Shown here: piece by piece, positions 7,609 through 39,215 of the stretch
Layout of the letters: the number at the start of each line of letters is the position of its first letter
How positions within the stretch are numbered: the first letter of the stretch is position 1
NCBI RefSeq assembly: GCF_042477335.2
Contig: NC_091262.1
Span: 14,528,001 to 14,592,000, forward strand
Direction of reading: 5' to 3'
Length of the DNA stretch: 64,000 nucleotides
Origin: Ovis canadensis
Lineage: Eukaryota; Chordata; Mammalia; Artiodactyla; Bovidae
Position numbers and translations under genes: made by a program
The notes under the pieces: model-generated
Database searches by the model: none
Told to the model about the DNA's origin: nothing
The model's input: only the letters and a program-made list of their open reading frames with translations

Positions 7609-8049
7609 GAGATGATGACCTAAAAATCATGTTCAATAGGATTATACTGAGGCCCAATGGAGGTGGCAGTCTAGGGGCAAGATGTCGAGTGTGATTCTGT
7701 CCCCTTCAGAGCCCTGGGATTTGGGTGTGGAGGCACCCAATCCCTCAAGGAAAGCCCTTGAGACTCCACTTTTTCTAGGGGCTTCCACATGGCCAAGGTG
7801 TGGTCCTGCCTTCAGCTTTCTTTCCTGATCACTACTTCCACCAATCACCCAGAGATCATAGATGAGGCTTTTCCTTAACTCCTTCAAATTGTGCCTTTCC
7901 ATCAGATATTCTGGTGAGAGTCTCACCAGAGACCAAATGAATACTTTTCAAAATTCATCAGAAATATTTTTAGAGGTAGTTTTACTAAGTATAGTTATTT
8001 TTTCCTTGTTTATTTTTTCAACTTAGGATTGTCGTAGTTGTGTCTGTTT

Positions 8050-8900
8050 TTTTAAAGTCTTGTTAAATACATGTTTTGTGTGTGATCATTATATACTTTT
8101 TCAAAACATTGACATGAATCAGCCATGGGTGTACATGTGTCCCCCATCCTGAACTGCCCTCCCACCTCCCTCCCTATCCCATCCCTCAGGGTCATCCCAT
8201 GCACCAGCCCTGAGCACCCTGTTTCATACATCAAACCTGGACTGGTGATCTATTTCATATATGATAATATACATGTTTCCATGCTATTCTCTCAAATAAT
8301 CCCACTTCTTCCACAGGGTCCAAAAGTCTGTTCTTTATCTCTGTATCTCTTTTGCTGTCTCACATATAGGGTCATTGTTACCATCTTTCTAAATTCCATA
8401 TACATGGAATTCTAAATTCCATATACATGCATTAATATACTGTATTGGTGTTTTCTCAAGTGTTTTTCTTCCTGACTTACTTCACTCTATATAATAAGAT
8501 CCAGTTTCATCCATGTCATTAGAACTAATTCAAATGCGTTCTTTTTAATAGCTGAATAATAATATTCCATTGTGTATATGTACCACAGCTTTCTTATCCA
8601 TTCGTCTGCTGATAGACATCTAGGTTACTTCCATGTCCTGGCTATTGTAAACAGTGCTGTGATGAACACTGAGGTACACATGTCTCTTTCGGTTCTGGTT
8701 TTCTCAGTGTGTATGCCCAGCAGTAGGATTGCTGGGTTGTATGGCAGTTCTATTTCCAGTTTTTTTAAGGAGTCTCCACACTGTTCTCCATTGTGGCTGT
8801 ACTAGTTTTCATTCCCACCAACAGCATAAGAGTGTTCGCTTTTCCCCACACCCTCTCCAGCGTTTATTGCTTGTAGACTTGTTGGTAGCAGCCATTATTA
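8050..8900 (-). mobile_element. Older L1 3' end inside array unit 1
   Basis: The reverse complement of an L1 3' UTR and the end of ORF2. The recognisable ORF2 C-terminal stretch is antisense to about 8430-8830. It is more diverged than the young L1 copies elsewhere in the window. About 110 AT-rich bases to the left (7942-8050) probably belong to the same insertion, but I cannot place that edge exactly. Confidence 0.8.
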
Positions 8901-9115
8901 GGGCTTCCCTGATAGCTCAGTTGGTAAAGAATCTGCCTGCAATGCAGGAGACCCTGGTTTGATTCCTGGGTCAGGAAGATCCCCTGGAGAAGGAAATGGC
9001 AACCCACTCCAGTATTCCTGCCTGGAAAATCCCATAGATGAAGCAGAATGGTGGGCTACAGTCCATAGAATCACAAAAAGTCAGGAAGGACTGAATGACT
9101 TCACTTTCACTTTCA
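8901..9115 (+). mobile_element. Bov-tA SINE at the edge of the old L1
   Basis: A complete forward Bov-tA, from 'gggcttccctgatagctcag' to 'cttcactttcactttc'. It lies exactly where the old L1 similarity stops. No convincing target-site duplication is visible. Confidence 0.92.
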
Positions 9116-9584
9116 TTCTGACCAAAAATGGTCCGGATCTTGCCATTCTGACTTGAATAATTTGAGATCAGTGGTTCTCTTTGGTTCTGGACACCAGACA
9201 CAGAGGCTGTTGGACCTCAACGCAGTCCAGAAGAGGGAGTCCTTTCGAGAACCTCAGTCTTTACAAAGGAAGGAATCTGGCTGCCACACCATCTTGCTAG
9301 GCTCCAAGCCCTTGGCCCTGAAAAGCCTTTCCTGAGACCAGAATTCTAGTCAGATAGTACGTGGAGGCAATGTTTGCTTCCCTGCACCCTGGGGAACATT
9401 CACATATACATGTCTCTATACACCTCCACATAGCACACACTGAGCTACTGAAGGGACAATCACCAGGTGTGTGCTTTTCAGTCTCCCAAGAACTATTGGT
9501 AGGAAAATATCATGCCCCTGGCCTGGCAACAGTGAGAGGCAGGCAGAAACCTGTCAACCAGGTTTTGGCAGGTAGATGTTATTT

Positions 9585-10030
9585 GCTGTTGAGAGAGCTG
9601 AAGTGCAGCCCCTGAGTTTCCATGGGGCTTGGCCAGGTCACTTTCAGGCATGCCAGGGTCTGGGTGACACAAGTGATTCCTGATGGGCTGTTTGATGGGC
9701 TTTGTTTTGATCGCCCACTGGGGCCCCTTGTTTCTCCTGGGGCATTCTTCCTCTCCAGGAGCCACAATCTTCAACAATAGCAGCCCCAGAGGAGAAATCC
9801 CTTCCAAGCACTCCTTCCTAGAAAGAAAGTTGAGAGCCCATAGGAGCCCCGGTATCAACTCCATAGTGAGGCCCTAATTGCCTGAAGTAGAGGGGTGGCC
9901 CCATGACATGGGCCAAGCAGGGAGCATTGCATTGCTTTGTCTGGGGGCCTTGGGTAGGCATGGGAACAGACACCCCACCAGCTGACAGTCGCTATTGTCC
10001 CTGGTATGAGCATTCCCATGCAGGGTGTTT
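9585..10030 (+). repeat. Internal ~445-bp tandem duplication in unit 1
   Basis: The stretch from 'tgctgttgagagagctgaag' (about 9584) through 'cattcccatgcagggtg' is followed at about 10030 by a second start of the same segment, 'tgctgttggctgttaagagagctgaag'. The second copy continues across the L1 insertion to the normal rest of the unit. This accounts for the extra length of unit 1 and shows unequal recombination or slippage within the unit. Confidence 0.75.
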
Positions 10031-10576
10031 GCTGTTGGCTGTTAAGAGAGCTGAAGGGCAGCCTCTGAGATTCCATGAGGCTAGGCCAGGTCACTTTTGG
10101 GCATGGCAGGGTCTCTGTAAAGCCAGTTATTCCTGATGGGCCCTTTGCTGAGTTTTGTTTCATTTGTACTCAGGCACCATGCGCCTCCTGGGGACCATGG
10201 CCTTTAAAAATAACACCTCCAGAGGAGAAACCTCTTTTTTTTTTTTTTAAATTTTTTTTTATTTTTTTTTAATTTTAGTTTTTTATTTTTTAAATTTTAA
10301 AATCTTTAATTCTTACATGCATTCCCAAACATGAACCCCCCTCCCACCTCCCTCCCCATAACAACTTTCTGGGTCATCCCCATGCACCAGCCCCAAGCAT
10401 GCTGCATCCTGCGTCAGACATAGACTGGCGATTCAATTCACATGATAGTATACATGTTAGAATGTCATTCTCCCAAATCATCCCACCCTCTCCCTCTCCC
10501 TCTGAGTCCAAAAGTCCGTTATACACATCTGTGTCTCTTTCCCTGTCTTGCATACAGGGTCGTCATTGCCATCTTC

Positions 10577-12460
10577 CTAAATTCCATATATATGTGTTAG
10601 TATACTGTATTGGTGTTTTTCTTTCTGGCTTACTTCACTCTGTATAATCGGCTCCATTTTCATCCATCTCATCAGAACTGATTCAAATGAATTCTTTTTA
10701 ACGGCTGAGTAATACTCCATTGTGTATATGTACCACAGCTTTCTTATCCATTCATCTGCTGATGGACATCTAGGTTGTTTCCATGTCCTGGCTATTATAA
10801 ACAGTGCTGCAATGAACATTGGGGTACATGTGTCTCTTTCAGTTCTGGTTTCCTCGGTGTGTATGCCCAGCAGTGGGATTGCTGGGTCATAAGGTAGTTC
10901 TATTTGCAATTTTTTAAGGAATCTCCACACCGTTCTCCATAGTGGCTGTACTAGTTTGCATTCCCACCAACAGTGTAGGAGGGTTCCCTTTTCTCCACAC
11001 CCTCTCCAGCATTTATTGCTTGCAGATTTTTGGATCGCAGCCATTCTGACTGGTGTGAAGTGGTACCTCATTGTGGTTTTGATTTGCATTTCTCTAATAA
11101 TGAGTGATGTTGAGCATCTTTTCATGTGTTTGTTAGCCATCCGTATGTCTTCTTTGGAGAAATGTCTATTTAGTTCTTTGGCCCATTTTTTGATTGGGTC
11201 GTTTATTTTTCTGGAATTGAGCTGCATGAGTTGCTTGTATATTTTTGAGATTAGTTGTTTGTCAGTTGCTTCATTTGCTATTATTTTCTCCCATTCAGAA
11301 GGCTGTCTTTTCACCTTGCTTATAGTTTCCTTTGTTGTGCAGAAGCTTTTAATTTTAATTAGATCCCATTTGTTTATTTTTGCTTTTATTTCCAGAATTC
11401 TGGGAGGTGGATCATAGAGGATCCTGCTGTGATTTATGTCTGAGAGTGTTTTGCCTATGTTCTCCTCTAGGAGTTTTATAGTTTCTGATCTTACATTTAG
11501 ATCTTTAATCCATTTTGAGTTTATTTTTGTGTGTGGTGTTAGAAAGTGATCTAGTTTCATTCTTTTACAAGTGGTTGACCAGTTTTCCCAGCACCACTTG
11601 TTAAAGAGATTGTCTTTACTCCATTGTATATTCTTGCCTCCTTTGTCAAAGATAAGGTGTCCATATGTGTGTGGATTTATCTCTGGGCTTTCTATTTTGT
11701 TCCATTGATCTACATGTCTGTCTTTGTGCCAGTACCATACTGTCTTGATGACTGTGGCTTTGTAGTAGAGCCTGAAGTCAGGCAAGTTGATTCCTCCAGC
11801 TCCATTCTTCTTTCTCAAGATTGCTTTGGCTATTCGAGGTTTTTTGTATTTCCATACAAAGCTTGAAATTATTTGTTCTAGTTCTGTGAAAAATGTGGCT
11901 GGTAGCTTGATAGGGATTGCATTGAATTTGTAAATTGCTTTGGGTAGTATACTCATTTTCACTATATTGATTCTTCCAATCTATGAACATGGTATATTTC
12001 TCCATCTATTAGTGTCCTCTTTGATTTCTTTCATCAGTGTTTTATAGTTTTCTATATACAGGTCTTTAGTTTCTTTAGGTAGATATATTCCTAAGTATTT
12101 TATTCTTTTCGTTGCAATGGTGAATGGAATTGTTTCCTTAATTTCTTTTTCTACTTTCTCATTATTCGTGTATAGGAATGCAAGGGATTTCTGTGTGTTG
12201 ATTTTATATCCTGCAACTTTACTATATTCATTGATTAGCTCTAGTAAATTTCTGGTGGAGTCTTTAGGGTTTTCCATGTAGAGGATCATGTCATCTGCAA
12301 ACAGTGAGAGTTTTACTTCTTCTTTTCCGATTTGGATTCCTTTTATTTCTTTTTCTGCTCTGATTGCTGTGGCCAAAACTTCCAGAACTATGTTGAATAG
12401 TAGCGGTGGAAAATTAGAAATGAAAATGGAGAGATCACAACAGACAACACAGAAATACAA
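10577..12460 (-). pseudogene. L1 ORF2 C-terminal part, one nonsense codon
   Basis: The minus-strand reading frame covers L1 ORF2 from just upstream of the 'FADD' reverse-transcriptase active site to the natural C terminus 'ILTHIYGI', including the Cys-rich 'CWRGCG...HCWWEC' motif. A TAG codon at 11981-11983 replaces a tryptophan present in the other L1 copies here. It divides the frame into 159-codon and 461-codon pieces. The upstream part of ORF2 is inverted, so no complete protein can be made. Confidence 0.92.
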
Positions 12461-12487
12461 AGGATCATAAGAGACTACTATCAGCAG

Positions 12488-13212
12488 TTGTATGCCAATA
12501 AAATGGACAACGTGGAAGAAATGGACAAATTCTTAGAAAAGTACAATTTTCCAAAACTGAACCAGGAAGAAATAGAAAATCTTAACAGACCCATCACAAG
12601 CACGGAAATTGATACTGTAATCAGAAATCTTCCAGCAAACAAAAGCCCAGGTCCAGATGGCTTCACAGCTGAATTCTACCAAAAATTTCGAGAAGAGCTA
12701 ACACCTATCCTCCTCAAACTCTTCCAGAAAATTGCAGAGGAAGGTAAACTTCCAAACTCATTCTATGAGGCCACCATCACCCTAATACCAAAACCTGACA
12801 AAGATGTCACAAAAAAGGAAAACTACAGGCCAATATCTCTGATGAACATAGATGCAAAAATCCTCAACAAAATTCTAGCAATCAGAATCCAACAACACAT
12901 TAAAAAGATCATACACCATGACCAAGTGGGCTTTATCCCAGGGATGCAAGGATTCTTCAATATCCGCAAATCAATCAATGTAATTCACCACATTAACAAA
13001 TTGAAAAATAAAAACCATATGATTATCTCAATAGATGCAGAGAAGGCCTTTGACAAAATTCAACATCCATTTATGATAAAAACTCTCCAGAAAGCAGGAA
13101 TAGAAGGAACATACCTCAACATAATAAAAGCTATCTATGACAAACCCACAGCAAACATTATCCTCAATGGTGAAAAATTGAAAGCATTTCCCCTAAAGTC
13201 AGGAACAAGACA
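12488..13212 (+). pseudogene. L1 ORF2 middle segment, inverted arm
   Basis: The plus-strand open frame encodes the linker and the first part of the reverse-transcriptase domain of L1 ORF2, with 'NKSPGPDGF' and 'LIPKPDKD' visible. It ends artificially after 'SGTRQG', where it runs through the target-site duplication into host DNA. It is the detached 5' arm of the inverted L1. Confidence 0.9.
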
Positions 13213-14625
13213 AGGAGAAACCTCTTTTGAGCTTACTTCCTAGTGAGGCAGTTTAGAGCTCTTTGCAGCTCTTTCCATCATAGGGCACTGTTTACCTGAA
13301 GTAGAGGGGTGGTTCCATGACATGGGCCAAACAAGGAGTAGTTGCCTTCTTGTTGTTTGTAGGCCTTCAGCAGGCCATGGAGGGGATGCCCTAGCAGGCA
13401 ATGATGGCTCTTGTTTCCAGCTTGAATGTTCCCTTGCAGGGCATTGCCAGGTTGACTCGTGATGAGCCCATGGGCCTGGCCACAGGTACCTGCTTCCTTG
13501 AGCATCCATTCTGTGGAACTTCTTGGCCTCTTTTTTCGTGTGATTGTGGCAAATGGCCAAACTTCATGTCCGCTCAGCCACCCCTTGCTAGCACAGACCC
13601 AGACTGAGCTTGGAGGAGCATCTCCATTCCCCAAGACATGTCCATGGAATCTTGGCAGCTGAGAGGTCCTTGTGAGCCTCTCAGAGCCTATGAGGCTCTG
13701 TCTTCTCTCAGGACTCTTTCTTAGAGTCACCATTTCTATCTCCCTGGATGTATTGTTATTCATATACTCACTCAAATATTGATTCATTCATCCACTTGTT
13801 TCTTCATGTTTGTCAGTATGTAGGGTGGGAGGCAAAGATGGACAAAAGTGAGGATGTAGGGAGGTAGCGAACCAGAGAGGATGGGAGGTTGGAACTTAGA
13901 GAGGTAAGGAGGAAGGTAGACAAGAATTTCAGCCAGGGGTTTGTGTCTCTGCATATAGGTGCATTTCATTGCTTTCTTGTGTCCCTGGACTTATTGTTCT
14001 AGGTATGTCTTATAGCAACATTTGCTACATCAAAGTGTAGCGCACTTTGTAGCAAAGCCTACAGAGACAGACTAGGAGCTCTCACAGGAGTCTTTCTGCT
14101 CCCTAGATAGATAACATCTGCAAAGGAAGGATTATCTGAGTGTGGCTTGCTGCCCTTCGTGCAACTGTCTCAGCCTTGGTGCCACAGCTGGCTAGACAGA
14201 AACTCAAGTCCTTTACAGCTTCCTTATTTCCAGAAAGCTTTGGAGGTAAGACCACTTAGGTTCCTGTGCATAGATGCACTTCATGGGGCATGGCTCATTT
14301 GGGTTGATGAGAAGAATTCATATAGTTCTGAAGAGAAATGATCACCTAAAAATCATGTTCAATAGAAGTATGCTGAGGCCTATTGGAGGTTGCTGTCCAG
14401 AAGCTAGAGGTCAGGGACCTTTCTTTTTTCTCTGAAACCATGGGATTTAGGTGTGGAGGCACCTTACCCCTTGAGGAAAGCCCTTGAGGAAAGCCTACAG
14501 TATCTAGGGGCTTCCACAGGGCAAAGGCCTGGTCCTGCCTTTGGTGATCCCAATTTCCACAGCCCACCTGGAGGCATTAGGTGGGGCCTTTCCATAGTTC
14601 CTTCTCTTCAAATTGTTTCTTTTAG

Positions 14626-14670
14626 GCAGATGTTCTATAGAGATTCTTGCCATATGCTAAATAACTTGAG
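14626..14670 (+). other. 45-bp exon-like block 'a' (unit 2)
   Basis: It is preceded by a pyrimidine tract ending 'ttcttttag' and followed by 'gtgagt'. The block is 45 bp without indels in units 2-6 (14626-14670, 16700-16744, 24784-24828, 26848-26892, 31242-31286). Entered after one base, it is open in units 2, 3 and 5. Units 4 and 6 have a TGA at a site read as AGA or CAA in the open units, which fits decay of a CGA codon. Acceptor AG is lost in units 5 and 6. No known protein is recognised, and splicing is inferred from motifs only. Confidence 0.4.
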
Positions 14671-15000
14671 GTGAGTGGCTTTCTTTGGTCCTGCACATGG
14701 GCCCCAGAGGGAGGTGGACCATGGAGGAGGCACCCCTTTAGGCTTTCCAGAGGTGGGAATCCTTTTGGGAACCTCAGTCATCACCACGGTGGAACTTATG
14801 CTACAGTGGCATTTCCAGGGGCTAGTAACTCAGGTACTGAAAAGCCTTTCATTAAACCTGAATTCTAATTAGATTAGACATGGAGGCAATGTTTGCATCC
14901 CTGGCCAACTGGAGTCATCCACACAAAGGTCTCTGCACACCTCCATGCAGAGCATGCTGATTGACTGAGAGAATGGTCAGCTGTGGTGTGTTCTTTTCAG

Positions 15001-15050
15001 TCTCCCAAGAACCATAAGCAGAGAAAGATGGTGCCCCAGGACCAGTGATG
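15001..15050 (+). other. 50-bp exon-like block 'b' (unit 2)
   Basis: It is preceded by 'ttcttttcag' and followed by 'gtaaga'. Counterparts are 9482-9531, 17072-17122, 25160-25209, 27209-27258 and 31626-31663. The AG before the block is kept in all units except unit 4. The GT after it is kept in units 1-5. In the phase that follows from block 'a' it is open in units 1, 2, 4, 5 and 6, and stopped by TGA in unit 3. The function is unknown. Confidence 0.4.
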
Positions 15051-16187
15051 GTAAGAGGCGGGCAATCTTGGCAGATAAACCCTGCTGGCTATTGAGAAAG
15101 CTGAAGGTCAGCCCATGAGATTTCATAGGGCATGGCCAGCTCACTTTCAGGCATGGTAAGTTCTCAATGTGGCCACTTGTTCCTAAGGGGCCCTATGATG
15201 GGTTTTGTTTCATTTATTCAGTAACTCGGGCCGCTTGTGTTTCATGTGGCATTCTTCCTCTCTGGGGGCCAATGATAGCACCTTCCAGAGGAGAAGTTCC
15301 TGCCATGCTTACTTTCATAATAAGGTTGTTGAGAACCTTTCAGGGTCACAGTATCACCTCCATCGAGAGGCACCATTTGCCTGAAGTAGAGAGTCAGTCC
15401 CATGATATGGACTGAGAAAGGACTAGATGCACTGCTGCTGTTTGAGGGGCTTGGGCAAGCCCATGGGAGGGAGTGCTGAACCAGCCAGCAATGGTTCCTG
15501 TCCCCATCCTGAAGGTTCCCATGTAGGGCACTGATGTGTTAACTGGTGCTGAGCCCTCAGGTCCCGTCTCCAAATATCTGCATCCTCGACCACCTCTTCT
15601 GAGGGATTTCATGACCTTGTTTTCTGCATGTTTGCAGTAAGTGGCCAGCCCCGTGTCCCCTCTGTGATCCCTTGCTTGCAAAGACCAGGTTTGACCATGG
15701 AGGAAGTCTCCATTCCCAAAACAGATCCATAAACTCTTGGAGGTTGAGAGGCCCTTGTGCCAAGCCTCTGCTGGGTGGAAAGTCCATGAGGCTCTGCCTT
15801 CTCTTGGAACTCCTCTTTGAATATGCCATTTCAGGCTGCTTGTACACGTTATTGTTATATTCACTCATGCCTTAATCACTTGTCCACTCATTCCCTCACA
15901 TTTGGCAGTAAGTATGGTGGGAAGGAAGGAGTATTTGTTAAAAAGTAAAGAGGTAAGGAACTAGAGAGGTAGAGACCTAGCAGGGAGGAAGATTGGTAGT
16001 AGTTATGCATTTCAGCCAGGGATTTTTGTCTCTGCATATAGGTGTATTTAGTTGCTTTCTAGTGTTCCTGGATGTGTCTCTATAGTTGTCTTGCAGCGTC
16101 ATTCACTGCATGAAGGTGCAGCATGCGTAACCACCAAAGCCTGCAAGGATGGAGTAGGTATCCTCATAGCTGTTGTTCTCCTTCTAG

Positions 16188-16328
16188 ACAGACAACAACC
16201 CCAGAGGAAGGAAGATCAGAGCATGGCCTGCTGCCCCTAGGGCAATTGGTATCAGCCTTGATCCAGCCTTTGGTGTGGACAGAAACTCACATCCTCTGGG
16301 GCATCCTCCTTTCCAGAAAGCATCAGAA
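16188..16328 (+). other. ~140-bp exon-like block 'c' (end of unit 2)
   Basis: It is preceded by 'gttctccttctag' and followed by 'gtaagc'. Counterparts are 14107-14245, 24258-24397, 26325-26464 and 28414-28559 (the donor is decayed to GC in unit 4's copy and AT in the last). In this copy one frame is open over all 141 bp. It ends in the phase that block 'a' of the next unit needs. Other copies carry stops or indels. I do not recognise the encoded sequence. Confidence 0.35.
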
Positions 16329-18059
16329 GTAAGCCTACTCAGGTGCCTGTGCATGCATACAATGCGTGGGGCATGCCTCGTTTGGGTTGGTGATGAGAAT
16401 TCCTACGGTCCTGAAGAGAGATGGTGATCTAAAATCATGCTCAATAGGACTGTGGTGAGGCTCAATGGAAGTGACATTACAGGGCCCAGAGGTTGTGGTT
16501 TCTTCTGTTCTTTCTAGAGCCCTGGGATTTGAGTGTGGAGGCACCCTATCCCTGAGTCTCTACAGTGCTCAGGAGCTTCCATGTGACCAAAGCCTGTCAT
16601 GCCTTTGGCTTTCTTTCCTAATCCCTGCTTCTACCACCCACCCAGAGGACATAGCCGGGACCTTTCTGTAGCTACTTCTCTTCAAATTGTGTCTTTCAGT
16701 CAAACATTCTGGAGAAGGCCTCACTGTGACCTGAACAATTCGAGGTAAGTGACTCTCTTTGGTCCTGAACATGGGCCCCAGAGGACATTGGGCTATGGAG
16801 TAGGCCCACCTCAAGGCAATCAAGAGTGGGGAGTTGTTTGTGGTCCGTAGTCCTCTCAAAGGGGAACTTCTGCTGCAGTGCCTTCAAGACCCTCTATTAT
16901 CTTGGAGACTGAAATGCTTTCTATTGGTCCTACATTCTAATCAGATTGATCATGGAGGCAGTGTTTGTTTCCTGGCTCCCTGAGGAATATCCACACACAG
17001 GTCTCTGCACACTTTTGTGCAGAGCTTGCTGAACATCTAAGAGGATGGTCTCCTGTTTGTGTGCTTCGCAGTCTCTGAAGAACAAGCAGATAGAAAAAGA
17101 TTATGCCCTAGACTGGACAATGGTGAGAGGCAGGAAACTGTCCAGTGGGTCATGGAAGTTAGACAGTTCTGGCTGTTAAGAGAGCTAAAGAGTAGCCCCT
17201 GAGATTCCATGGGGTGTGGCTAATTAACTTACAGGCATGGCAGGGTCTTAGTGAGACCCCTTGTTCCTGATGGGCCCTTTGATGGATTTTTCATTTTTCC
17301 ACTTGGGCCCTAGGCATATCTTGAAGCGTTCTCCCTCTCGGGGGCATGGCCTTCAATGATCACACCCCCAGAAAAGAAACCTTTTGGAGCTTAACTTTCT
17401 AGTAAGGCTGTTGCAAGCCCTTCAGAGCCCTGGTAGCATCTCCATTATGAGGCTGTATTTACCTGGAGTAGAACAATGGCCTCAAGATGTGGGTCAGTCC
17501 AGGAACAGTTGCCTTGTTTTTGTTTGGGGGCCTTCAGCAGGCCATGGGAGAGGACACGCGCCAGGTGATGAGGCCTCTTGTTCCCAGCCTGAATGTTCCC
17601 ATGCAAGGCATTACCAGGTTGACTGGTTCTGAGCCTTTGTGCCCTGTCACCAGATACCTGCTTCCTCAAGAATCTATTCCGTGGGACTTTGTGGGCTCAT
17701 TTTCTGTGTGTTGGCTGCAAATGGCCTAGCCTCATGTCTTTTTTTTTTTTTTAATTTTTAGTTTTTTATTTTTTAAATTTTAAAATCTTTAATTCTTACA
17801 TGCATTCCCAAACATGAACCCCCCTCCCACCTCCCTCCCCAGAACATCTTTCTGGGTCATCCCCATGCACCAGCCCCAAGCATGCTGCATCCTGCGTCAG
17901 ACATAGACTGGCGATTCAATTCACATGATAGTATACATGTTAGAATGTCATTCTCCCAAATCATCCCACCCTCTCCCTCTCCCTCTGAGTCCAAAAGTCC
18001 ATTATACACATCTGTGTCTCTTTCCCTGTCTTGCATACAGGGTCATCATTGCCATCTTC

Positions 18060-21000: not shown

Positions 21001-21878
21001 ACTGCTTTTATAGTGTCCCACAGGTTTTGGGTTGTTGTGTTTTCATTTTCATTAGTTTCTATGCATATTTTGATTTCTTTTTTGATTTCTTCTGTGATTT
21101 GTTGGTTATTCAGAAGTGTGTTGTTCAACCTCCATATGTTAGAATTTTTAATAGTTTTTCTCCTGTAATTGAGATCTAATCTTAATGCATTATGGTCAGA
21201 AAAGATGCTTGGAATGATTTCGATTTTTTTGAATTTATCAAGTTTAGATTTATGGCCCAGGATGTGATCTATCCTGGAGAAGGTTCCATGAGCACTTGAA
21301 AAAAAGGTGAAATTCGTTGTTTTGGGGTGAAATGTCCTATAGATATCAATTAGGTCTAACTGATCTAATGTATCATTTAAAGTTTGCGTTTCTTTGTTAA
21401 TTTTCTGTTTAGTTGATCTGTCCATAGGTGTGAGTGGGGTATTAAAGTCTCCCACTATTATTGTGTTATTGTTGATTTCCCCTTTCATACTTGTTAGCAT
21501 TTGTCTTACATATTGCGGTGCTCCTATATTGGGTGCATATATATTTATAATTGTTATATCTTCTTCTTGGATTGTTCCTTTGATCATTATGTAGTGGCCT
21601 TCTTTGTCTCTTTTCACAGCCTTTGTTTTAAAGTCTATTTTATCGGATATGAGTATTGCCACTCCTGCTTTCTTTTGGTCTCTATTCGCGTGGTATATCT
21701 TTTTCCAGCCCTTCACTTTCAGTCTGTATGTGTCCCTTGTTTTGAGGTGGGTCTCTTGTAAGCAGCATATAGAGGGGTCTTGTTTTTGTATCCATTCGGC
21801 CAGTCTTTGTCTTTTGGTTGGGGCGTTCAACCCATTTATGTTTAAGGTAATTATTGATAAGTATGATCCCGTTGCCAT
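18060..21878 (-). CDS. ORF2: L1 ORF2 protein, intact (endonuclease and reverse transcriptase)
   Basis: ORF2p nicks DNA and reverse-transcribes L1 and SINE RNA at the target (target-primed reverse transcription). The 1272-residue frame is uninterrupted and of normal L1 length. The apurinic-type endonuclease occupies about residues 1-240, with 'LNINGLN' near 12-18, 'LQETHL' around E42, 'VGDFNTPL', and 'SDH' before the linker. The reverse-transcriptase domain has 'SPGPDGF', '[10 protein letters not shown]' and the catalytic 'FADD' near residue 700. A Cys-rich motif C-x3-C-x8-H-C-x3-C lies at about 1129-1146, close to the C terminus. The start MATGSY lies 51 bp after the ORF1 stop, as in the other copy. 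No inactivating change is visible, but activity cannot be judged from sequence, and the element's promoter appears to be missing. Confidence 0.95.
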
Positions 21879-21929
21879 TTACTTTATTGTTTTGGGTTCG
21901 GGTTTATACACCCTTTTCGTGTTTCCTGT

Positions 21930-22856
21930 CTAGAGGATATCCTTTAGAATTTGTTGGAGAGCTGGTTTGGTGGTGCTGAATTCTCTCAGCTTTTGCTTGT
22001 CTGTAAAGCTTTTGATTTCTCCTTCGTATTTGAATGAGATCCTTGCTGGGTACAGTAATCTGGGCTGTAGGTTATTGTCTTTCATCACTTTAAGTATGTC
22101 TTGCCATTCCCTCCTGGCCTGAAGAGTTTCTATTGACAGATCAGCTGTTATCCTTATGGGAATCCCCTTGTGTGTTATTTGTTGTTTTTCCCTTGCTGCT
22201 TTTAATATTTGTTCTTTGTGTTTGATCTTTGTTAATTTGATTAATATATGTCTTGGGGTGTTTCGCCTTGGGTTTATCCTATTTGGGACTCTCTGTGTTT
22301 CTTGGACTTGGGTGATTATTTCCTTCCCCATTTTAGGGAAGTTTTCAACTATTATCTCCTCAAGGATTTTCTCATGATCTTTCTTTCTGTCTTCTTCTTC
22401 TGGGACTCCTATAATTCGAATGTTGGAGCGTTTCATATTGTCCTGGAGGTCTCTGAGATTGTCCTCATTTCTTTTAATTCGTTTTTCTTGTTTCCTCTCT
22501 GATTCATTTATTTCTACCATTCTATCTTCTATTTCACTAATCCTATCTTCTGCCTCCGTTATTCTACTATTTGTTGCCTCCAGAGTGTTTCTGATCTCAT
22601 TTATTGTGTTATTCATTATATTTTGACTCTTTTTTATTTCTTCTATGTCCTTGTTAAACCTTTCTTGCATCTTCTCAATCCTTGTCTCTAGGCTATTTAT
22701 CTGTGTTTCCATTTTGATTTCAAGATTTTGGATCATTTTCACTATCAATATTCGGAATTCCTTCTCCGGTAGATTCCCTACTTCTTCCTCTTTTGTTTGG
22801 TTTGGTGGGCAACTCTCCTGTTCCTTTACCTGCTGAGTATTCCTCTGTCTCTTCAT
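21930..22856 (-). CDS. ORF1: L1 ORF1 protein, intact (RNA-binding chaperone)
   Basis: ORF1p coats L1 RNA as a trimer and acts as a nucleic-acid chaperone in the cytoplasmic L1 ribonucleoprotein. The 308-codon frame is open. A basic, polar N-terminal tail is followed by a long coiled coil at about residues 36-130, with heptad-like 'INSLETRIEKM' and 'RISEIEDRM'. Next comes an RRM-like domain with 'SNIRIIGVPE', then a C-terminal domain with 'PIRITADLS' and 'ARREWQDI'. It lies directly upstream of ORF2 on the same strand. The copy at 39216-40142 has the same length and differs at only a few residues. Confidence 0.95.
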   Translation of the reverse strand: MKRQRNTQQVKEQESCPPNQTKEEEVGNLPEKEFRILIVKMIQNLEIKMETQINSLETRIEKMQERFNKDIEEIKKSQNIMNNTINEIRNTLEATNSRITEAEDRISEIEDRMVEINESERKQEKRIKRNEDNLRDLQDNMKRSNIRIIGVPEEEDRKKDHEKILEEIIVENFPKMGKEIITQVQETQRVPNRINPRRNTPRHILIKLTKIKHKEQILKAAREKQQITHKGIPIRITADLSIETLQARREWQDILKVMKDNNLQPRLLYPARISFKYEGEIKSFTDKQKLREFSTTKPALQQILKDIL

Positions 22857-23694
22857 CTTGGTTATATTGCTGCGTTTGGGGTGGCCTTTTTATATTCTGA
22901 TAATTTGTGGAGTTCTCTTTATTATGGAGCTTCCTCACTTTGGGTGGGGTTCTATCAGTGGCTTGTCAAGGTTTCCTGGTTAGGGAGGCTTGTGTTGGAG
23001 TTTTGGTGGGTGGAGCTGGGTTTCTTCTCTCTGGAGTGCAATGGAGTGACCCGTAATGGGTTATGAGACATCAAAGGTTTTGGGATAATTTTGAGCTGCC
23101 TGTATATTGAGGCTCAGGGGAGTGTTCCTGTGTTGCTGGAGAATTTGCATGGTATGTCTTGTTTTGGAACTTGTTGGCCCTTGGGTGGAGCTTGGTTTCA
23201 GTGTAGGTATGAAGGCATTTGATGAGCTCCTATTGCTTAATGTTCCCTGAATTCAAGAGTTCTCTAATGTTTTCAGGCTTTGGGTTTAAGCCTCCTGCTT
23301 CTGGTTTTCAGTTTTATTTTCACAGTAGCCTCTAGACTTCTCCATCTATACAGCACCGATGATAAAACATCTAGGTTAAAGATGAAAAGTTTCTCCACCT
23401 TGAGGGACACTCAGAGAGGTTCACTGAGTTACAAGGAGAAGAGAAGATGGAGGGGGTAGTTAGAGGTAACTGGAATGAGATGCGGTGAGATCAAGAGAGG
23501 AGAGAGCAGGCTAGCCAGTAGTCACTTCCTTATGTGCGCTCTATAGTCTGGACCGCTCAGAGGTATTTACAGAGTTATACGGGGAAGAGGAGAGGGAGGA
23601 AGTAGACAGAGGTGACCAGGAGGATAAGAGAGAGGAATGAGTAGGAGAGAGACAAATCCTGCCAGTAACCAGTTCCTTAGGTGTTCTCTACCGT
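22857..23694 (-). other. Truncated L1 5' UTR
   Basis: 838 bp homologous to the ORF1-proximal part of the 5' UTR at 40143-42719. It lacks the distal CpG-rich region and the terminal YY1-like site present in that copy. The purine-rich stretch near 23400-23650 is shared by both copies, and this copy keeps about 15 bp near 23447 that the other lacks. Confidence 0.85.
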
Positions 23695-24487
23695 TAGCCT
23701 CATGTCTTCAATTCCACCCCTTGCTTGCACAGACCAAGATCGAACTGAGAGGTGCATCTCTGTTTTCCAAAACACATTTATAGAATTTTATTGACTGAGA
23801 GACCGTTGCAGTAGGCCTTCTTCTGGGTATAGAGCCCATGAGGCTCTCCCTTCTCTTGGGGCACCTTTGTGGAGCTGCCATTTTTCCCTCTCTGGACACA
23901 TTACTTATGTATTCACTCAAGCACTGATATGCTAGTCACTTGTTTCCTCAGGTTTGGCAGTAGGTTTGTTGGGCGGTAAGGATAGATGAAGAAAAGTGAG
24001 GAGGTAGATAACTAGAGACAGGGAACATAGAAAGCTAGAGAGGTAGCAAGGAAGGTTGGTGGTAGGAGTACATTTTACCCAGGGGTTTGTGTCACTGTGT
24101 ATAGATAGATGCATTTTGTTGCTGTTTTGGGTTCTTGGATTTATCACTCTAGATAGGTCTTGTAGCATCATTCACTGCGTGAAGGTGTAGCATACATGAC
24201 TACCAAAGCCTACAGGGCCAAACTAGATGTTGGCACAGCTGTTGTGCTCCTCTCTAGACAGACAATGCCCCAAAGGAAGGAAGATCTGACTCATACCTGT
24301 TGCTTCCAGGGCCATCGATGTCAGCCTTGGTGCAGCACCTAGGGTAGACAGAAACTCACATACTTTGGGGCTTCATCATTTCCAGAATGCATTGAAGGCA
24401 AGCCTACTCAGACTCTTGGTATAGATACAATGTGTGGAGCATGCCTTGTTTGGCTTAATGATGAGAAGTCATATGGTTCTAAAGAGA

Positions 24488-26556
24488 GAAAATGACATAA
24501 AAATTATCCTCAATAGGATTGTGCTGAGCTGAATGGAAGTGGCAGTCCAAGGGCAAAAGGTCCTAGTTCCTTCTGTCCCTTTTGGAGCATTAGAATTTGG
24601 GTGGGTAGGCAACTGATCCCACAAGGAGAGCCCCTGTGTCTCTCCCTTGTCTACAGTCTTTTACATAGGCTAATTCCTAGTCCTGCCTTTGACTTTCTTT
24701 GCTGATCCCTGCTTCTACCGCCTACCTGGAGGCCATAGGCAAGGCCTTTCCTTAGCTCCTTCTCTTTGCATCTTGTCTTTCAGTAAGATGCTCTGGTGAG
24801 GGTCTCACTACAACCTGGATGATTCAAAGTGAATGGTCCCCTTTTTTCCTGGACATGAACACCAGAGGACGAAGAGCTATGAGGGAGGCACACCTCAAGG
24901 CAGTCCAAAGTGAGGAGTCCTTGCGGGAACCTCAGTCTTCACAAAGGGTGAACGTATTCTACAATGCCATCTAGACAGGCTAGGATGTCTGACATTAAAA
25001 GGCCTTTTGTTAAACCTGAATTCTAGTCAGACTGGACATCAAGACAGTGTTCGCTTCCCTGGCCCCCTGGGGAACATCCACACAAATATCTCTGCAAACT
25101 TCCATGCAGAGCACATCGATCACCTGAGGGGATGGTCACCTATGGTGTGTGCTTTCCAATCTCCCAAGAATGGTTGGTAGGGAAGGATCATGCCCCAGGC
25201 CTGGCAATGGTGATAAGCAAGTAGTAACTTGTCCACTGGGTCTTGGCGAGTGGACTCTGTTGCTGTTGAGAGAGCTGAAGGGCAGCCCGATGGAGCTTGG
25301 CCAGATCACTTTCAGGCATAGTGAGTTCTCAGTGTGGTCATTTGTTCCTGATGGGCCCTTTGATGTGTTTGTTTTGTTCACCCACTCAGGCACCTTGCAT
25401 CTCCTGGGGTGCTCTTCCACTCTGGGGCCACAGCCTTCAATGATAGCACCCCCCAGAAGAGAAACCCCTCCCAAATATACCTTTTTGGTAAGGCTGTTGA
25501 GAGCCCTTTGGAGCCTCTATATCAGCCCCAGCATGCGGCCCCGTTTGCCTGAAGGAGAGCTGTGACACGGTCACGAGGGTCAAGTGAGGAGTACTTGCGT
25601 TGGTGTTGTTTGGGGCCTTTGGTGGGGCACAAGAGGGGACGCTGCTCCAGGCAACAGTGGCTCCTGCTCCAGCCTGAACATTCCTATGTAGAGTGTTGCC
25701 AGGTTGACTAGTGCCCTGTCACCAGATAGCTGCTTCCTTCAGAATCAATTCCATGGGACATTGTGGCCTCATTCTCTATGTGTTGGCAGCAAGTGACCAG
25801 ACCCAATGTCCCCTCCACCACCCCTTGCTTGAACAGACAAGAATTGAGCTCAGAGGAATGTTTCCATCCCACAAGACACATCTGTAGAATCTTGGCAGCC
25901 AAGAGGTTCTGTCAGGTGGAGAACCCATGAGGGTCTGCCTTCTCTCTCAATTCCTTTATGGAATTACCATTTCTTTCCTCCTGGTCACGTTATTCATGTA
26001 CTCACTCATGCACTTATCCACTCATCCACTCATTCCCTAATGTTTGCCCATACGTAAGGTGAGAGGGAAGGATGAATAAAAGTAAGGAGGTGAGGAGGTA
26101 GAGAACTAGAGAGGTAGGGAGGGAGATGGGTGGTAGTCATGCATTTTAGCCAGGGGTTTGTGTCTCTGTGTGTAAGTGCATTTTGTCACTTTCTTGGGTT
26201 CCTGTATGTCTTGTTCTAGATATGTCTTGTAGCATTAGTCACTGCATGAAGATGTAGCACATGTGACCATCAAAGCCTACAAGAAATAACAAGGAATTCT
26301 CACAAGTATCTTTTTGCTCTATAGACAGACAACATCCCCAGAGGAAGGAAGATCTGAATGTGGCTTGCTGCCCATGGGAAATAAATGTCAGCCTTGGTGC
26401 AACACCTAGGGTAGCCAAAAACTCACAGTCTTTGGGACATACTCATTTCCAGAAAGCTTCAGAGGTAAGCCTACTCAGGTGCCTGTGCCTGAATGTGATA
26501 TGAGGGAAGTGCCTCAGTTGTGTCAATGTTTAGAATTCATATGGTCCTGAAGAAAG
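24488..26556 (+). repeat. Array unit 4, uninterrupted
   Basis: 2069 bp by landmark spacing. Block 'a' is 24784-24828 with flanking 'tctttcag' and 'gtgaat'. Block 'b' is 25160-25209, with the preceding AG changed to AA. The following block 'c' is 26325-26464. An open frame of 138 codons (25149-25565) overlaps block 'b' but is not maintained in other units. Confidence 0.85.
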
Positions 26557-28640
26557 ATGATGACCTAAAAATCATTCTCAAAAATATTATGCTGAGACCC
26601 AATGGACATGTCCATGCAAAAGCAGGAAGTCTCTCTGTCCCTTCTGGAGCCCTGGGATTTGGCTGTGGAGGCACCCTATCCCACGGAGAGTGTACTTAAG
26701 TACTCTCTGCAGTGTCTAGGGGCTTCCATGTGGCCAGGGACTGGCCCTGCCTTTGGCTTTCTTTCCTAATCCCTGCTTTCACCACTCACCCAGAGGACAT
26801 ACACTGGGTCTTTCCTTAGCACCTTCTTTTTGAATTGTGTCTTTTGGTCAGACATTCTGGCAAGGATCTTGCCACGGCCTGAATGATTCAAGGTTAATGG
26901 CTCTCTTTTGTCCTCAACACAGGCCCCAGAGGAAGACGGACTATGGGGGAGGTGAGCGTCAAGGCAGTGGAGAGCCTCAGTTCTCACAAAAGGGGAACTA
27001 CTGCTGTGGCACCATCACAACAGGCTAGGAACTCGGGCACTGAAAAGCCTTTCGTTAAACCTAAATTCTTGTCATATTGTACACGGAGGCAATGTTTGCT
27101 TCCCTTGCCCCCTGGGGAACATCCATCCACACACAGGTCTCTGCACATCTTTGTCCAGAGCACACTGATCTGCTGAGAGGATGGTCACCTATGGTGTGTC
27201 CTTTTCAGTTTCCCAGTAATTTTTTGTAGGGAAGGATCCTGCCTCAGGCCTGGCAACGGTGAGAGGCAGGTATGAACCTGTCTAGGCACATAGACACTGC
27301 TGGCTGTTGAGAGAGCTGAAGGGTAGCCCTGAGATTCCATGGCACTTGGCCAGGTCATTTTCAGGCATGGCGAGTTCTCATGAGACCAATTATTCTGATG
27401 GGCCCTTTAACATATTTTGTCCTGTTCATCCACTCAGTCCCCTTGAATCTCCTGCAGTGTTCTTCCTCTCTGGGGGCCATAGCCTTCAATGATAGCAACC
27501 CCGGAAAAGAAACCCTTCCAAACTTACCTTCTTAGTAAGGCTGCTGAGAGCCCTTCAGAGCCCCAGTTATCATGTTCATCGTGAGGTCCCATTTGCCTGA
27601 AGTAGAGGAGTGGCTTCATGATGTGAACCAAACAGGAAGTAGTTGCACTGTTGTTGCAGGACCTTTGGCAAGCCATTGGAGGTGAGGCTGCACCAGATGA
27701 CAATGTCTCCTGTCCCCAGCCTGAATGCTCCTGTGTAGGGCATTGCCAGGTTGACTGGTGCTGAGCCCACATGCCCCAAATCCATATATCTGCTTCCTGA
27801 AGCATCATTTCATGCTTGTTGCTTCATTTTTCTGTATGTTGGTGGCAAGCGGCCAAGCTCCATGTCTTTTCACCCACTCCTTGCTCACAAAGGCCAGATT
27901 ATAACTCAGAGGAACATCTTGTCCCCCAAGACACAACCATAGAATCTTGGTAACCAAGAGGCCCTCTCGCCGGACCTTCTGCCAGGTGGAGAGCCCATGA
28001 AGCTCTGCTTTCTCTCAGTACTCCTTTATTGATTCACCATTTCTTCCTCCCTGGACTAGTTATTCATCTACTCACTCATGCACTGATCCACTTTTTCACT
28101 CTTTCCCTCACATTTGGCAGTAGGTAAGATGAGTGGGAGGTTGTAAGGGAGAAAAGTAAGGTGGTGGGGAGGGAAAGAGCTAGAAAAGTAGGGAGATAGG
28201 AAGCTGGAGAGGTAGCGAGGAAGGTTGGTGGTAGGTATGCATTTCAGCCAGGGATTTGTGTATAGATGAATTTTGTCATTTTCTCTTGATCCTGGATATG
28301 TCACTGTAGGTGTGTCTTGTAGCATATTTGTTGCATGAAGGTATAGACCATGTGACCACCAAATCCTTCATGGACATACTAGGTGTTCTCACAGCAGTCA
28401 TGCTTCTCTCTAGACAGACAATATCAGAGAGGAAGGAAGATCTGAGTGTGGCCTGCTGTCCCCAGGCCAATCAATGTGTCTTGGTCTAGAATCTGGGGTA
28501 GGCAGTCTCTTGTCCCATGGGACATACTCATTTCCAGAAATCCTCAGAGATAAGCCATCTCAAGCCCCTATGCGTAGATGCAATGAGTGGGAACTGCATT
28601 GTTTGGCGTGATGAATAGAATGCATATAGTCCTGAAGAGA
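26557..28640 (+). repeat. Array unit 5, uninterrupted
   Basis: 2084 bp by landmark spacing. Block 'a' is 26848-26892 (AG before it changed to GG). Block 'b' is 27209-27258 with intact 'cttttcag' and 'gtgaga'. Block 'c' is 28414-28559. Confidence 0.85.
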
Positions 28641-28870
28641 GATGATGACCCAAAAGTCATGCTCAGTACAATTGCACTGAGGACCAATGGACACGGCAGT
28701 CCAGGGACAGGATGTCAGGGATCTTTCTGTCCTTTCTGGAGCCCTGGGATTTGACTGCCAAGATACCCTATCCCTCAAAGAAAGCCCTTATGTCTCTACA
28801 GTGCCTAAGGCCTTCCATGTGGCCAAGGCCTGGTCCTGCCTTTGGCTTTCATTCCTGTTCCCTACCTCCA

Positions 28871-31172
28871 GAGTTTTGCCAAGAGAACGCACTGGTCATA
28901 GCAAACATCCTCTTCCAACAACACAAGAAAAGACTCTACACATGGACATCACCAGGTAGCCAACACCAAAATCAGGTTGAATAATCTTTGCAGCCAAAAA
29001 TGTAGAAGCTCTATACAGTCAGCAAAAACAAGACTGGGAGCTGACTGTAGCTCAGATCATGAACTCCTTATTACCAAATTCAGACTTAAATTGAAGAAAG
29101 TAGGGACAACCACTTGACCATTCAGGTATGACCTAAATAAAATTCCTATGATTATTCACTGAAGTGAGAAATAGATTTAAGGGACTAGATCTGATAGACA
29201 GAGTGCCTGATGAACTATGGATGGAGGTTCGTGACATTGTACAGGAGACAGGGATCAAGACCATCCCCAAGGAAAAAGAAATGCAAAAAAGCCAAATGGC
29301 TATCTGAGGAGGCCTTACAAATAGCTGTGAAAAGAAGAGAAGCAAAAAGCAAAGGAGAAAAGGAACATATAAGCATCTGAATGTAGAGTTCCAAAGAATA
29401 GCAAGGAGAGATAAGAAAGCCTTCCTCAGTGATCAGTGCAAAGAAATAGAAGAAAACAATAGAATGGGAAAAGCTAGAGATCTCTTCAAAAAAATTAGAG
29501 ATACCAAGGAAATATTTCATGCAAAGATGGACTCAATAAAGGACAGAAATGGTATGGACCTAACAGAAGCAGAAGATACTAAGAAGAGGTGGCAAGAATA
29601 CACAGAAGAACTATACAAAAAAGATCTTCATGATCCAGATACTCATGATGGTGTGATAATTCACCAGGAGCCAGACATCCTGGAGTGCGAAGTCAAGTGG
29701 GCCTTAGAAAGCATCACTACAAACAAAGCTAGTGGAGGTGATGGAATTTCACTTGAGCTATTTTAAATCCTGAAATATGATGCTGTGAAAGTGCTGCACT
29801 CAATATGCCAGCAAATTTGGAAAACTCAGCAGTGGCCACAGGCCTGGAAAAGGTCAGTTTTCATTCCAATTCCAAAGAAAGGCAACACCAAAGAATAATC
29901 AAATTACTGCACAATTGCACTCATCTCACATGACGCAAAGTAATGCTTAAAATTCTCCAAGCCAGGTTTCAGCAATATATGAATCATGAACTTCCAGATG
30001 TTCAGGATGGTTTTAGAAAAGGCAGAGAAACCAGGGATCAAATTGCCAACATCTGTTGGATCATTGAAAACTCAAGAGAGTTCCAGAAAAACATCTCTTT
30101 CTGCTTTATTGACTATGCCAAAGCCTTTGACTGTGTGGATCACAATAAACTGTGGAAAATTCTGAAAGAGATGGGAATACCTGACCTGCCTCTTGAGAAA
30201 TCTGTATGCAAGTCAGGAAGGAACAGTTAGAACTGGACATGGAACAACAGGCTGGTTCCAAATAGGAAAAGGAGCACATCAAGGCTGTATATGTCACCCT
30301 GCTTATTTAACATACATCATGAGAAACGCTGGGCTGGAGGAAGCAAAAGCTAGAATCAGGACTGCCAGGATAAATATCAAAACCCTCAAATATAAAGATA
30401 TCACCACCCTTATGGCAGAAAGTAAAGAAAAACTAAAGAACCTCTTGATGAAAGTGAAAGAGGAGAGTGAAAAAGTTGGCTTAAAATTCAACATGCAGAA
30501 AACTAAGATCATGGCATCTCATCCCATCACTTTGTGGCAAATAGAAGGGGATACAGTGGAAACAGTGGCTGACTTTATTTTTCTTGGCTCCAAAATCTCT
30601 GCAGATGGTGACTGCAGCCATGAAATTAAAAGATGCTTGCTCCTTGGAGGGAAAGTTATAACCAACCTAGACAACATATTAAAAAGCAGAGACATTACTT
30701 TGCCAACAAAGGCCCGTCTAGTCAAGGCTATATTTTTTCCAGTGGTCATGTATGGATGTGAGAGTTGGACTATAAAAAAAGCAGAGCGTCGAAGAATTGA
30801 TGCTTTTGAACTGTGGTGTTGGAGAAGACTCTTGTGAGTCCCTTGGACTGCAAGGATATCCAAACAGTCCATCCTAAAGGAGATCAGTCCTGAGTGTTCA
30901 TTGGAAGGACTGATGTTGAGGCTGAAACTCCAGTACTTTGGCCACCTGATGGAAACAACTGAGTCATTTGAAAAGACCCTGATGCTGGGAAAGATTGAAG
31001 GCATTTGGAGAAGGGGACGACCAAGGATGAGATGGCTGGATGGCATCACCGTCTCGATGGACATGAGTTTGAGTAAACTCTGGGAGTAGGTTATGGACAG
31101 GGAGGCCTGGCGTGCTGCAGTTCATGAGTTTTCAAAGAGTCAGACCCGACTGAGCAACTGAACTGAATTGAG
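28871..31172 (+). mobile_element. BovB LINE, 5'-truncated, 2.3 kb
   Basis: A forward BovB (RTE clade). It retains the end of the endonuclease region, the reverse-transcriptase region and the characteristic 3' terminus 'actgagcaactgaactgaattga'. The short word cctcca at 28865-28870 and 31173-31178 is a candidate target-site duplication, and unit sequence is continuous across it. BovB is known in ruminants as a horizontally acquired LINE, and its 3' end gave rise to the Bov-A SINE body. Confidence 0.93.
29464..30837 (+). pseudogene. BovB reverse transcriptase remnant
   Basis: Three overlapping frames (29464-29766, 29943-30230, 30193-30837) together cover the BovB reverse-transcriptase region. 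Visible are 'NKASGGDGI', 'CFIDYAKAFDCVDH' and the C-terminal 'WCWRRLL'. Frameshifts and stops separate them. The catalytic aspartates are lost: 'YKDI' stands where the copy at 48543-48896 reads 'YADD'. It is non-functional. Confidence 0.9.
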
Positions 31173-32285
31173 CCTCCACTGCCCACCCAGAGGATGTTGG
31201 CGGGCCCTATTTAGCTCCTTCTCTCAAATTGTGTCTTTCTGTCAGATATTCTGGTGAGGATCTTGCAATAGCTTGAATTATTTAAGGTGAGTGACTCTCT
31301 TTGGTTCTAGACACAGGCTCCAGAAGTGCTGGACTGCAGAGAAGGCCTTCCTCAAAGCAGTCAGAGGGCCGAGTCTTTTCTGTAATTTCATTCCTCACAG
31401 AGTAGGACTTCTTGATTTCTGTCAAGATGGTGGCACCATGTTGATGGGTTAAGATCTTGAACACTGCAGAACCTTTTGTTAGGCTTGAATTCTAGTCATA
31501 TGGTCACAGAGGCAATGTTTGCTTCCCTGGTCCCTGGAGAACATCCACACGCAGGTTTCTGCATACCTCCATGCAGAGCACACTGATCCACTGGGGGTCA
31601 GTCACCTGTGATGTGTGTTTTGCAGTCTCCCAAGAAGAGGGATCATCCCCAGGCCTGGCAATGTTAAGAGGCTGGCAGGAACCCATCCACCAGATCTTGG
31701 CAGGTAGGTGCTGCTTGCTGTCGAAAGATGAAGCACAGTCCCTGGGATACCATAAGACTTGACCAGGTCATGTTCAGGCATGGCAAACAACTGTGAGGCC
31801 AGTTGTTTCTGATGGACCCTAGAGTGGGTTTTGCTTCACTGACCAACTCAGGCCTCTTGTATCTCCTAGGGCATTCTTCCTCTCTGGGGGCCACAACTTT
31901 TAAAGATGTCTCCCCCTAGAGGAGAAATCCCTCTGAGATTACCTTCCTAATAAGGCCTTTGAGAGCCATTTGGAAACCTGGTATCATGTGCAACATGAGG
32001 CCTTGTTTGCCCAAAGTAAAAGGTTGGCCCCATGACATGGACTGAGTAGGGAGTAGTTGCATTACTGTTTGGGGAGTTTGGTCAGGTCATTGGAGAGGAT
32101 GCTGCAGCAGACAGTGATGGCTCTTTTGCACAGCCTGAATATTCCCATGCGGGGCATTGCAAGGTTGACTGGTGCTAAGCCCATGGGCCTTTCTCAGTAT
32201 ATCTGATTTCTTGAGCATAAATTCATGTGGTCAGATAGCCACATTGTGTATTTTTACCAAGAAAAATAGAAGCCTAGTGTCTTGC

Positions 32286-39164: not shown

Positions 39165-39215
39165 TTACTTTATTGTTTTGGGTTCGGGTTTATACACCCT
39201 TTTCGTGTTTCCTGT

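Follow-up and report, generated by a model that had tools for sequence, protein, structure and literature searches.

In human and mouse, each ~2-kb unit of a working SNORD115 array, which belongs to a long non-coding host transcript, holds one intronic C/D snoRNA, while turnover among the units maintains homogeneity. SNORD115, a brain snoRNA that in primates and rodents is expressed paternally and in neurons from a host lncRNA and carries a perfect 18-nt antisense element to HTR2C, has been proposed as a controller of the editing and splicing of HTR2C, a serotonin receptor. PMC7673782 gives the mouse unit as ~1.9 kb, and its authors describe the effect of a mouse SNORD115 deletion as relatively modest. 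Human has 41 SNORD115 copies and mouse 130, and the HBII-52 counts for dog, cat, horse and cow are 4, 20, 2 and 0 (PMC4063771 Table 1), with a pseudogene ratio of 0.667 'for other species' (PMC4063771). For cow, Zhang et al. 2014 recorded no SNORD115; a cattle table in PMC10705519 has a single SNORD115 (81 bp, chromosome 21). SNORD115 clusters are described as confined to eutherians in the available text of PMC3349704, and that of PMC8300276 holds nothing on SNORD115 snoRNAs.

Whereas SNORD115 is published as absent from cow, relics of it are present in Ovis canadensis, in a window of 64,000 nucleotides (NC_091262.1, 14,528,001 to 14,592,000) to which the positions below refer. We consider it very likely that a transposon-ridden array in this window is the long-decayed SNORD115 part of the imprinted Prader-Willi/Angelman snoRNA locus in a ruminant, its neighbours SNORD116 (mostly) and SNORD109 being intact.

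A tandem array of ~2.08-kb units

The earlier note had proposed a ~2.08-kb tandem repeat here, and head-to-tail units of 2.07-2.10 kb do occupy 7606-32260 on one strand (+, as for all features below), with pairwise identities of 68-74%. In self-BLAST, the off-diagonal signal expected at ~2.08 kb appears as long colinear same-strand matches with E-values printed as 0 (13284-15657 with 15369-17738 at 67.7% identity, 13578-17742 with 23714-27870 at 69.2%, and 23831-26774 with 25920-28863 at 70.8%). The six landmark words reported earlier lie 5-6 bases after common unit starts at 7606, 14332, 16415, 24483, 26551 and 28636, with unit spacings of 2083, 2068 and 2085 bases, and of 2100 net of an L1 insert. 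Tandem Repeats Finder, with 500 as the longest period here, detected no ~2.08-kb period and is uninformative at that length. The remark that the unit is richer in G+C than its flanks also holds, with 0.486 for the array pieces, 0.366 and 0.378 for the flanks and 0.383 for the inserts.

Because the landmark word lies inside the snoRNA, the unit phase was corrected: the snoRNA starts 31 bases before the common unit start, at 14301, 16384, 24452, 26520 and 28605. L1, BovB-like and SINE-like inserts cut up the units. U1 (7606..10029), delimited by BLAST to the other units, is broken at ~7927-9128 by L1-like and SINE-like sequence, and BLAST found no unit homology upstream of 7606 within the window. 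By BLAST coordinates, U2 (10032..14300) is a remnant that picks up near unit position 750, with an apparent deletion of ~1.6 kb that includes one snoRNA; it is broken at ~10237-13215 by an L1 with a 16-base target-site duplication. U3 (14301..16383, 2083 bases), U5 (24452..26519, 2068 bases) and U6 (26520..28604, 2085 bases) are complete. U4 (16384..24451, ~2100 bases net) is split at ~17741-23694 by an L1 with a 14-base target-site duplication. U7 (28605..32260, by BLAST) is split at ~28871-31163 by BovB-like LINE sequence, with an RVT_1 domain in 30166-30837, and ends near unit position 1260. The L1 label derives from the Pfam matches of one copy, and the BovB and SINE labels from the earlier note, backed only by one reverse transcriptase match and one tRNA match. 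Splice-site-like words are present in the units.

The repeated unit is a SNORD115 repeat

All six landmark words fall in matches to SNORD115 (HBII-52; Rfam RF00105), on one strand and at 43.5-71.8 bits, exceeding the gathering score of 39 bits at each of the six places. There is one match per ~2-kb tandem unit, in phase with the unit and on its strand. Downstream, at 58402..58468, lies a SNORD109 (HBII-438 family; RF01278, 97.2 bits) with intact C and D boxes, placed as SNORD109B; in the 150 kb upstream, 20 of 21 Rfam matches are SNORD116, on the same strand as the array. The RF00105, RF01278 and SNORD116 matches therefore give the order SNORD116-SNORD115-SNORD109, all on one strand, which is also the gene order in human. 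Judged by this order, the locus is the imprinted Prader-Willi/Angelman snoRNA locus instead of an X or Y satellite. HBII-438A and B are reported to flank both snoRNA clusters (PMC4063771).

An RF00105 search of the 2.97-Gb assembly, with scores for 57 candidates out of 859,121 from the first look, returned at least six places, with no other among the matches listed; across 14 control genomes it gave one signal, below the cut-off. The UBE3A family (PF16558) had 0 matches here and likewise 0 in the 14 control genomes, so that this search is uninformative; neither UBE3A nor SNRPN was located. The L1-rich window might suggest the FIRRE locus or an X-linked macrosatellite, but the Rfam result rules out both.

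State of the snoRNA copies

The first copy (7606..7644; 43.5 bits, model positions 33-71 of 82) is missing its 5' part, which includes the C box. The D box is kept and the C box broken at 14301..14381 (71.0 bits) and 26520..26600 (71.8 bits), and the reverse is true at 16384..16463 (60.9 bits). At 28605..28685 (56.3 bits) the D box is kept, the stem is mismatched and the C box is broken at its proper register, with a C-like word 3 bases upstream. The copy at 24452..24530 (63.4 bits) keeps C and D boxes; its D' and C' boxes are altered and its terminal stem is disturbed by a two-base loss adjoining the D box, although an offset stem may still form.

In an alignment read by eye, 0 of 6 copies combine C box, D box and terminal stem in homologous register, a verdict that for copy 24452 was reached on the stem alone; the box-pattern script also scored a C box as present at 28605 (the out-of-register word) and at 7606 (where it caught the C' box). 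Judged by eye, a full set of C, D', C' and D boxes is present in the 81-base majority sequence of the copies but in no single SNORD115 copy. Compared with the Rfam consensus element, the 18-nt HTR2C antisense element matches at 13-15 of 18 positions in all six copies and is perfect in none. A pattern for the HTR2C target site had 0 matches in the assembly, where the exon carrying it did not turn up either and may be unassembled or missed. Counting against decay, all six copies exceed the Rfam gathering score. Folding of three of the six copies against shuffles gave z scores of -3.45 (16384), -2.12 (24452) and +1.30 (26520); since these are mixed and the intact SNORD109 stands at -0.54, folding energy is no guide to live versus dead copies. 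From the state of its boxes, stems and antisense elements, the SNORD115 array looks dead.

The SNORD116 cluster upstream is still largely preserved. Both C and D boxes are found by pattern in 14 of 20 copies, and five consecutive units show 99-100% identity when compared. Between the units at contig positions 14388183, 14401872, 14409206 and 14411920 (6 pairs, chosen out of 21 tested), snoRNAs are 99-100% and spacers 76-82% identical, and for the box-less copy at 14414700 the figures are 64-73% and 73-74% (5 pairs).

Divergence of the units

SNORD115 copies have a mean identity of 75.2% versus 70.5% for spacer, and the snoRNA is slightly above its own spacer in 10 of 10 pairs, so that there may have been weak constraint, or constraint early on. 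Neither at 40 nor at 82 columns was any stretch conserved beyond column shuffles (p 0.243 and 0.399), and 14.6% of 2144 overlapping unit windows were conserved as much as, or more than, the snoRNA. The units differ at 26-32% of sites. Their tree, built from seven partly incomplete rows, is an unsupported star in which none of four inner branches has support; inner branches are printed at 0.0047 and 0.0027 and end branches measure 0.18-0.23. A star with end branches of ~0.2 argues that the array was apparently once homogeneous and that homogenising stopped long ago. The mean K2P distance between units, 0.39, would correspond to roughly 50-90 million years at mammalian rates, an uncalibrated figure.

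Discussion

The observed divergence, star-like tree and broken elements are consistent with the following course of events. Turnover between SNORD115 units would have ended long ago in this ruminant lineage, after which the units would have drifted independently down to ~70% identity. One after another, boxes, stems and the antisense element would have been lost from the snoRNAs, and L1, BovB-like and SINE-like transposons would have inserted into the units, while most of the SNORD116 array and SNORD109 remained intact. We infer loss of function, its timing, a host transcript and imprinting.

The earlier note saw here an unrecognised macrosatellite-like array under transposons; the tandem ~2.08-kb units broken by transposons stand, but the unit is a SNORD115 repeat by six Rfam matches. 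A macrosatellite unrelated to any gene would account for the tandem units, and for an open reading frame list in which no obvious common long frame, nor any shared frame of coding repeats, is evident by eye. We nevertheless regard it as wholly improbable, because every one of the six unit starts is a SNORD115 match that exceeds the gathering score, in phase with the unit and between SNORD116 and SNORD109. Moreover, a macrosatellite is a homogeneous non-genic array, and these units are ~70% identical with snoRNA-derived sequence inside.

It is also unlikely that a reduced and diverged array still yields a functional snoRNA, with a different target, from one or two copies. Copy 24452 retains C and D boxes, the snoRNAs are slightly better conserved than the spacer, and the condition of SNORD116 and SNORD109 implies that the host transcript probably runs. 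Yet neither the D' box nor the C' box nor the register of the stem survives in copy 24452, the snoRNA is no outlier among the unit windows, and the best antisense match in any copy is 15 of 18. Similarly doubtful is an array that was never homogeneous, its units arising by successive ordinary tandem duplications over a long time. Such a history suits the great age of all units, but the tree has no supported nesting, with inner branches of 0.003-0.005 against ends of ~0.2, although its power against nesting is limited by the seven partly incomplete rows.

Taking the array as decayed SNORD115, we lean slightly towards viewing ruminants as natural SNORD115 nulls. Deep in their ancestry there would have been a homogeneous SNORD115 array with at least seven units, in which concerted evolution and constraint then ended, while SNORD116, which lies ~110 kb upstream and presumably on the same transcript, would have remained under constraint. 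If so, this would favor an old multi-copy array over the very low copy numbers that Zhang et al. 2014 infer for the ancestor, and would speak against the idea that a SNORD115-HTR2C function is essential beyond primates and rodents. The relics are relevant both to the published count, in which SNORD115 is absent from cow, and to how many copies the ancestor had. A lineage with SNORD116 and without SNORD115 would be a natural experiment on the SNORD115-HTR2C claim, and the loss of SNORD115 with retention of SNORD116 fits a locus whose constrained element is SNORD116.

The SNORD116 array of this assembly shares with the SNORD115 array its locus, its strand and one snoRNA per unit, but is partly homogeneous and has mostly kept its boxes. 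Few copies and many pseudogenes, as here, also characterize HBII-52 in other laurasiatherians, outside primates and rodents. The human and mouse SNORD115 arrays are built alike: their head-to-tail units of ~2 kb hold one snoRNA each, all on one strand, and the array follows SNORD116 and precedes SNORD109. In contrast to those arrays of 41 and 130 copies, the one described here has six snoRNA copies in units ~70% identical, with boxes, stems and antisense element broken and transposons inside the units.

Identity and organization of the array

Self-comparison of the window shows units arranged head-to-tail on one strand from 7606 to 32260, bearing out the tandem array claimed in the earlier note. 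From start to start, five successive snoRNAs lie 2083, 2100 (with an L1 subtracted), 2068 and 2085 bases apart, in agreement with the net spacing of ∼2.07–2.10 kb noted there, and the array is, as also noted, richer in G+C than the sequence outside it (0.486 versus 0.37–0.38). Identity between the seven whole or partial units (U1–U7) is 68–74% in all 21 pairs. At the U1/U2 junction the unit coordinate drops back from ∼1215 to ∼750, in our reading the trace of a deletion or an exchange by which one snoRNA was lost.

The repeat had been taken for a new macrosatellite, a reading that we reject. An Rfam search of all 64 kb at a permissive threshold returned 17 rows, the best being SNORD109A (RF01278) at 58402–58468 with 97.2 bits. 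Ranks 2–7 are plus-strand SNORD115 (RF00105) matches at 26520, 14301, 24452, 16384, 28605 and 7606 (71.8 to 43.5 bits); all six exceed the gathering score of 39 and coincide with the landmark words of the supposed satellite. We identify the repeat as the remains of an imprinted snoRNA cluster that is already known. The remaining ten rows comprise three tRNA matches, of which that at 8908 is above its gathering score and sits in SINE-like sequence, and seven sub-threshold microRNA, snoRNA and lncRNA families.

L1 elements lie in U2 (10237–13215, with a 16-base target-site duplication) and in U4 (17741–23694, minus strand, with a 14-base duplication). Their two common pieces are 98.9 and 99.4% identical, and the inserts are therefore young relative to the array. 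The L1 in U4 looks full-length, with an open ORF1 (319 aa, L1 RNA-binding domains) and an open ORF2 (1272 aa, endonuclease and reverse transcriptase). The copies at 10237–13215 and 35007–40965 are 97–99% identical to it; the former is shortened and its 5' piece is inverted, which fits twin priming. BovB-like LINE stretches at 30008–31163 and 32292–33433, 74% alike, lie either side of the last array piece, and one of them has a reverse transcriptase match.

State of the SNORD115 copies

Boxes and stems were read by eye from the alignment of the copies. The C box is lost in 14301 and 26520 and the D box in 16384, while 7606 is without its 5' part. Copy 28605 has lost the in-register C box, has a C-like word 3 bases upstream and carries stem mismatches. 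Copy 24452 keeps C and D and has lost D' and C'; the loss of 2 bases beside D shifts its stem, although by hand a 6-pair bulged stem could still form. In a pattern script, C and D come out as present not only in 24452 but in 28605 and 7606 as well, the C box being called from the out-of-register word in 28605 and from the C' box in 7606.

In all six copies, 13–15 positions of the 18-nt antisense element agree with the Rfam consensus. The majority sequence of the copies matches at 17 of 18 positions and has all four boxes; the ancestor was therefore a proper SNORD115. The single difference sits two bases before the D box. In PMC4063771, a perfect 18-nt match is reported only for primates and rodents, and elephant and horse have two antisense mismatches near the D box.

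Constraint in SNORD115 and SNORD116

At neither width tested, 40 columns (p 0.243) or 82 (p 0.399), is any stretch of the unit conserved beyond column shuffles. Stretches at the low end of conservation do fall below the shuffle expectation (p 0.006 and 0.012); divergence is therefore somewhat uneven along the unit. Conservation of the snoRNA is 0.747, against a mean of 0.710 over alignment windows, 14.6% of which reach the snoRNA value. Mean identity over ten pairs is 75.2% for the snoRNA and 70.5% for the spacer, and the snoRNA is higher in every pair. On these alignments the excess would be weak or early at most.

The same test on four SNORD116 units gives 99–100% for the snoRNA and 76–82% for the spacer in 6/6 pairs, which shows the pattern that constraint leaves. 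The full set comprises 15 pairs in group A (mean spacer 0.776, snoRNA 0.851) and 6 in group B (0.752 and 0.896). Group A contains two box-less copies, 14385451 and 14414700 (coordinates on C18, the contig carrying the window). Between 14385451 and 14388183 the spacer is 95.7% identical and the snoRNA only 81.7%, the opposite of constraint; the snoRNA of 14385451 may be unusually fast-changing or converted. By pattern, C and D boxes are kept in 14 of 20 SNORD116 copies and not in the other 6. The SNORD116 array at 14381678–14427821 includes a run of ∼2738-base units, 99–100% identical; adjoining units are 77–80% alike with snoRNAs still identical or one base different, and distal copies are decayed.

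Locus and genome-wide occurrence

The window spans 14528001–14592000 of C18. Over the preceding 150 kb, SNORD116 accounts for 20 of the 21 Rfam matches, and these 20 all lie on the plus strand between 14381678 and 14468107. BLAST with three units as queries found no array-unit match in these 150 kb (74 N included). Across the assembly (2.97 Gb, 42 contigs), SNORD116 occurs in at least 19 places, the listed matches all falling in this upstream stretch (55 of 603,120 first-look candidates scored). SNORD115 occurs in at least six, with only the window copies among the matches listed (57 of 859,121 scored); of the 14 control genomes, only Bacillus subtilis gave a signal, and that lay below the cut-off. 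A 563-base piece of the unit matched seven places, all inside the window.

Neither SNRPN nor UBE3A was located. Sheep chromosome 18 corresponds to cattle 21, and sheep chromosome 2 is fused. SNORD115, SNORD116, SNRPN and UBE3A are listed on cattle chromosome 21 in PMC10705519, with UBE3A ∼104 kb past SNORD115. Matches taken to be HTR2A and HTR2B lie on contigs C10 and C2. An HTR2C-like gene on contig C28 was detected by its 3' exon; the HTR2C exon bearing the editing site was not found in the assembly and may be unassembled or missed.

History of the array

The unit tree is a star, with printed inner lengths of 0.0047 and 0.0027, no supported forks and end branches of 0.18–0.23. The simplest reading is that the array was once homogeneous and that its units later ceased to exchange, a freeze that by rough inference would be some 50–90 million years old. 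If the star reading is right, an old ancestor had at least seven units. PMC4063771 infers extremely low ancestral copy numbers, reports pseudogenes in all species and gives an HBII-52 (SNORD115) count of 0 in cow, offering incomplete assembly or loss as possible causes; a cattle SNORD115 is annotated in PMC10705519. Among the papers searched on SNORD115 outside primates and rodents, we found no description of a ruminant relic array.

Unlike these units, the SNORD116 array here is still partly homogeneous, five compared units being 99–100% alike. The locus looks like a natural case of SNORD115 loss next to a SNORD116 array that is mostly conserved, and it is this that gives the array its moderate interest.
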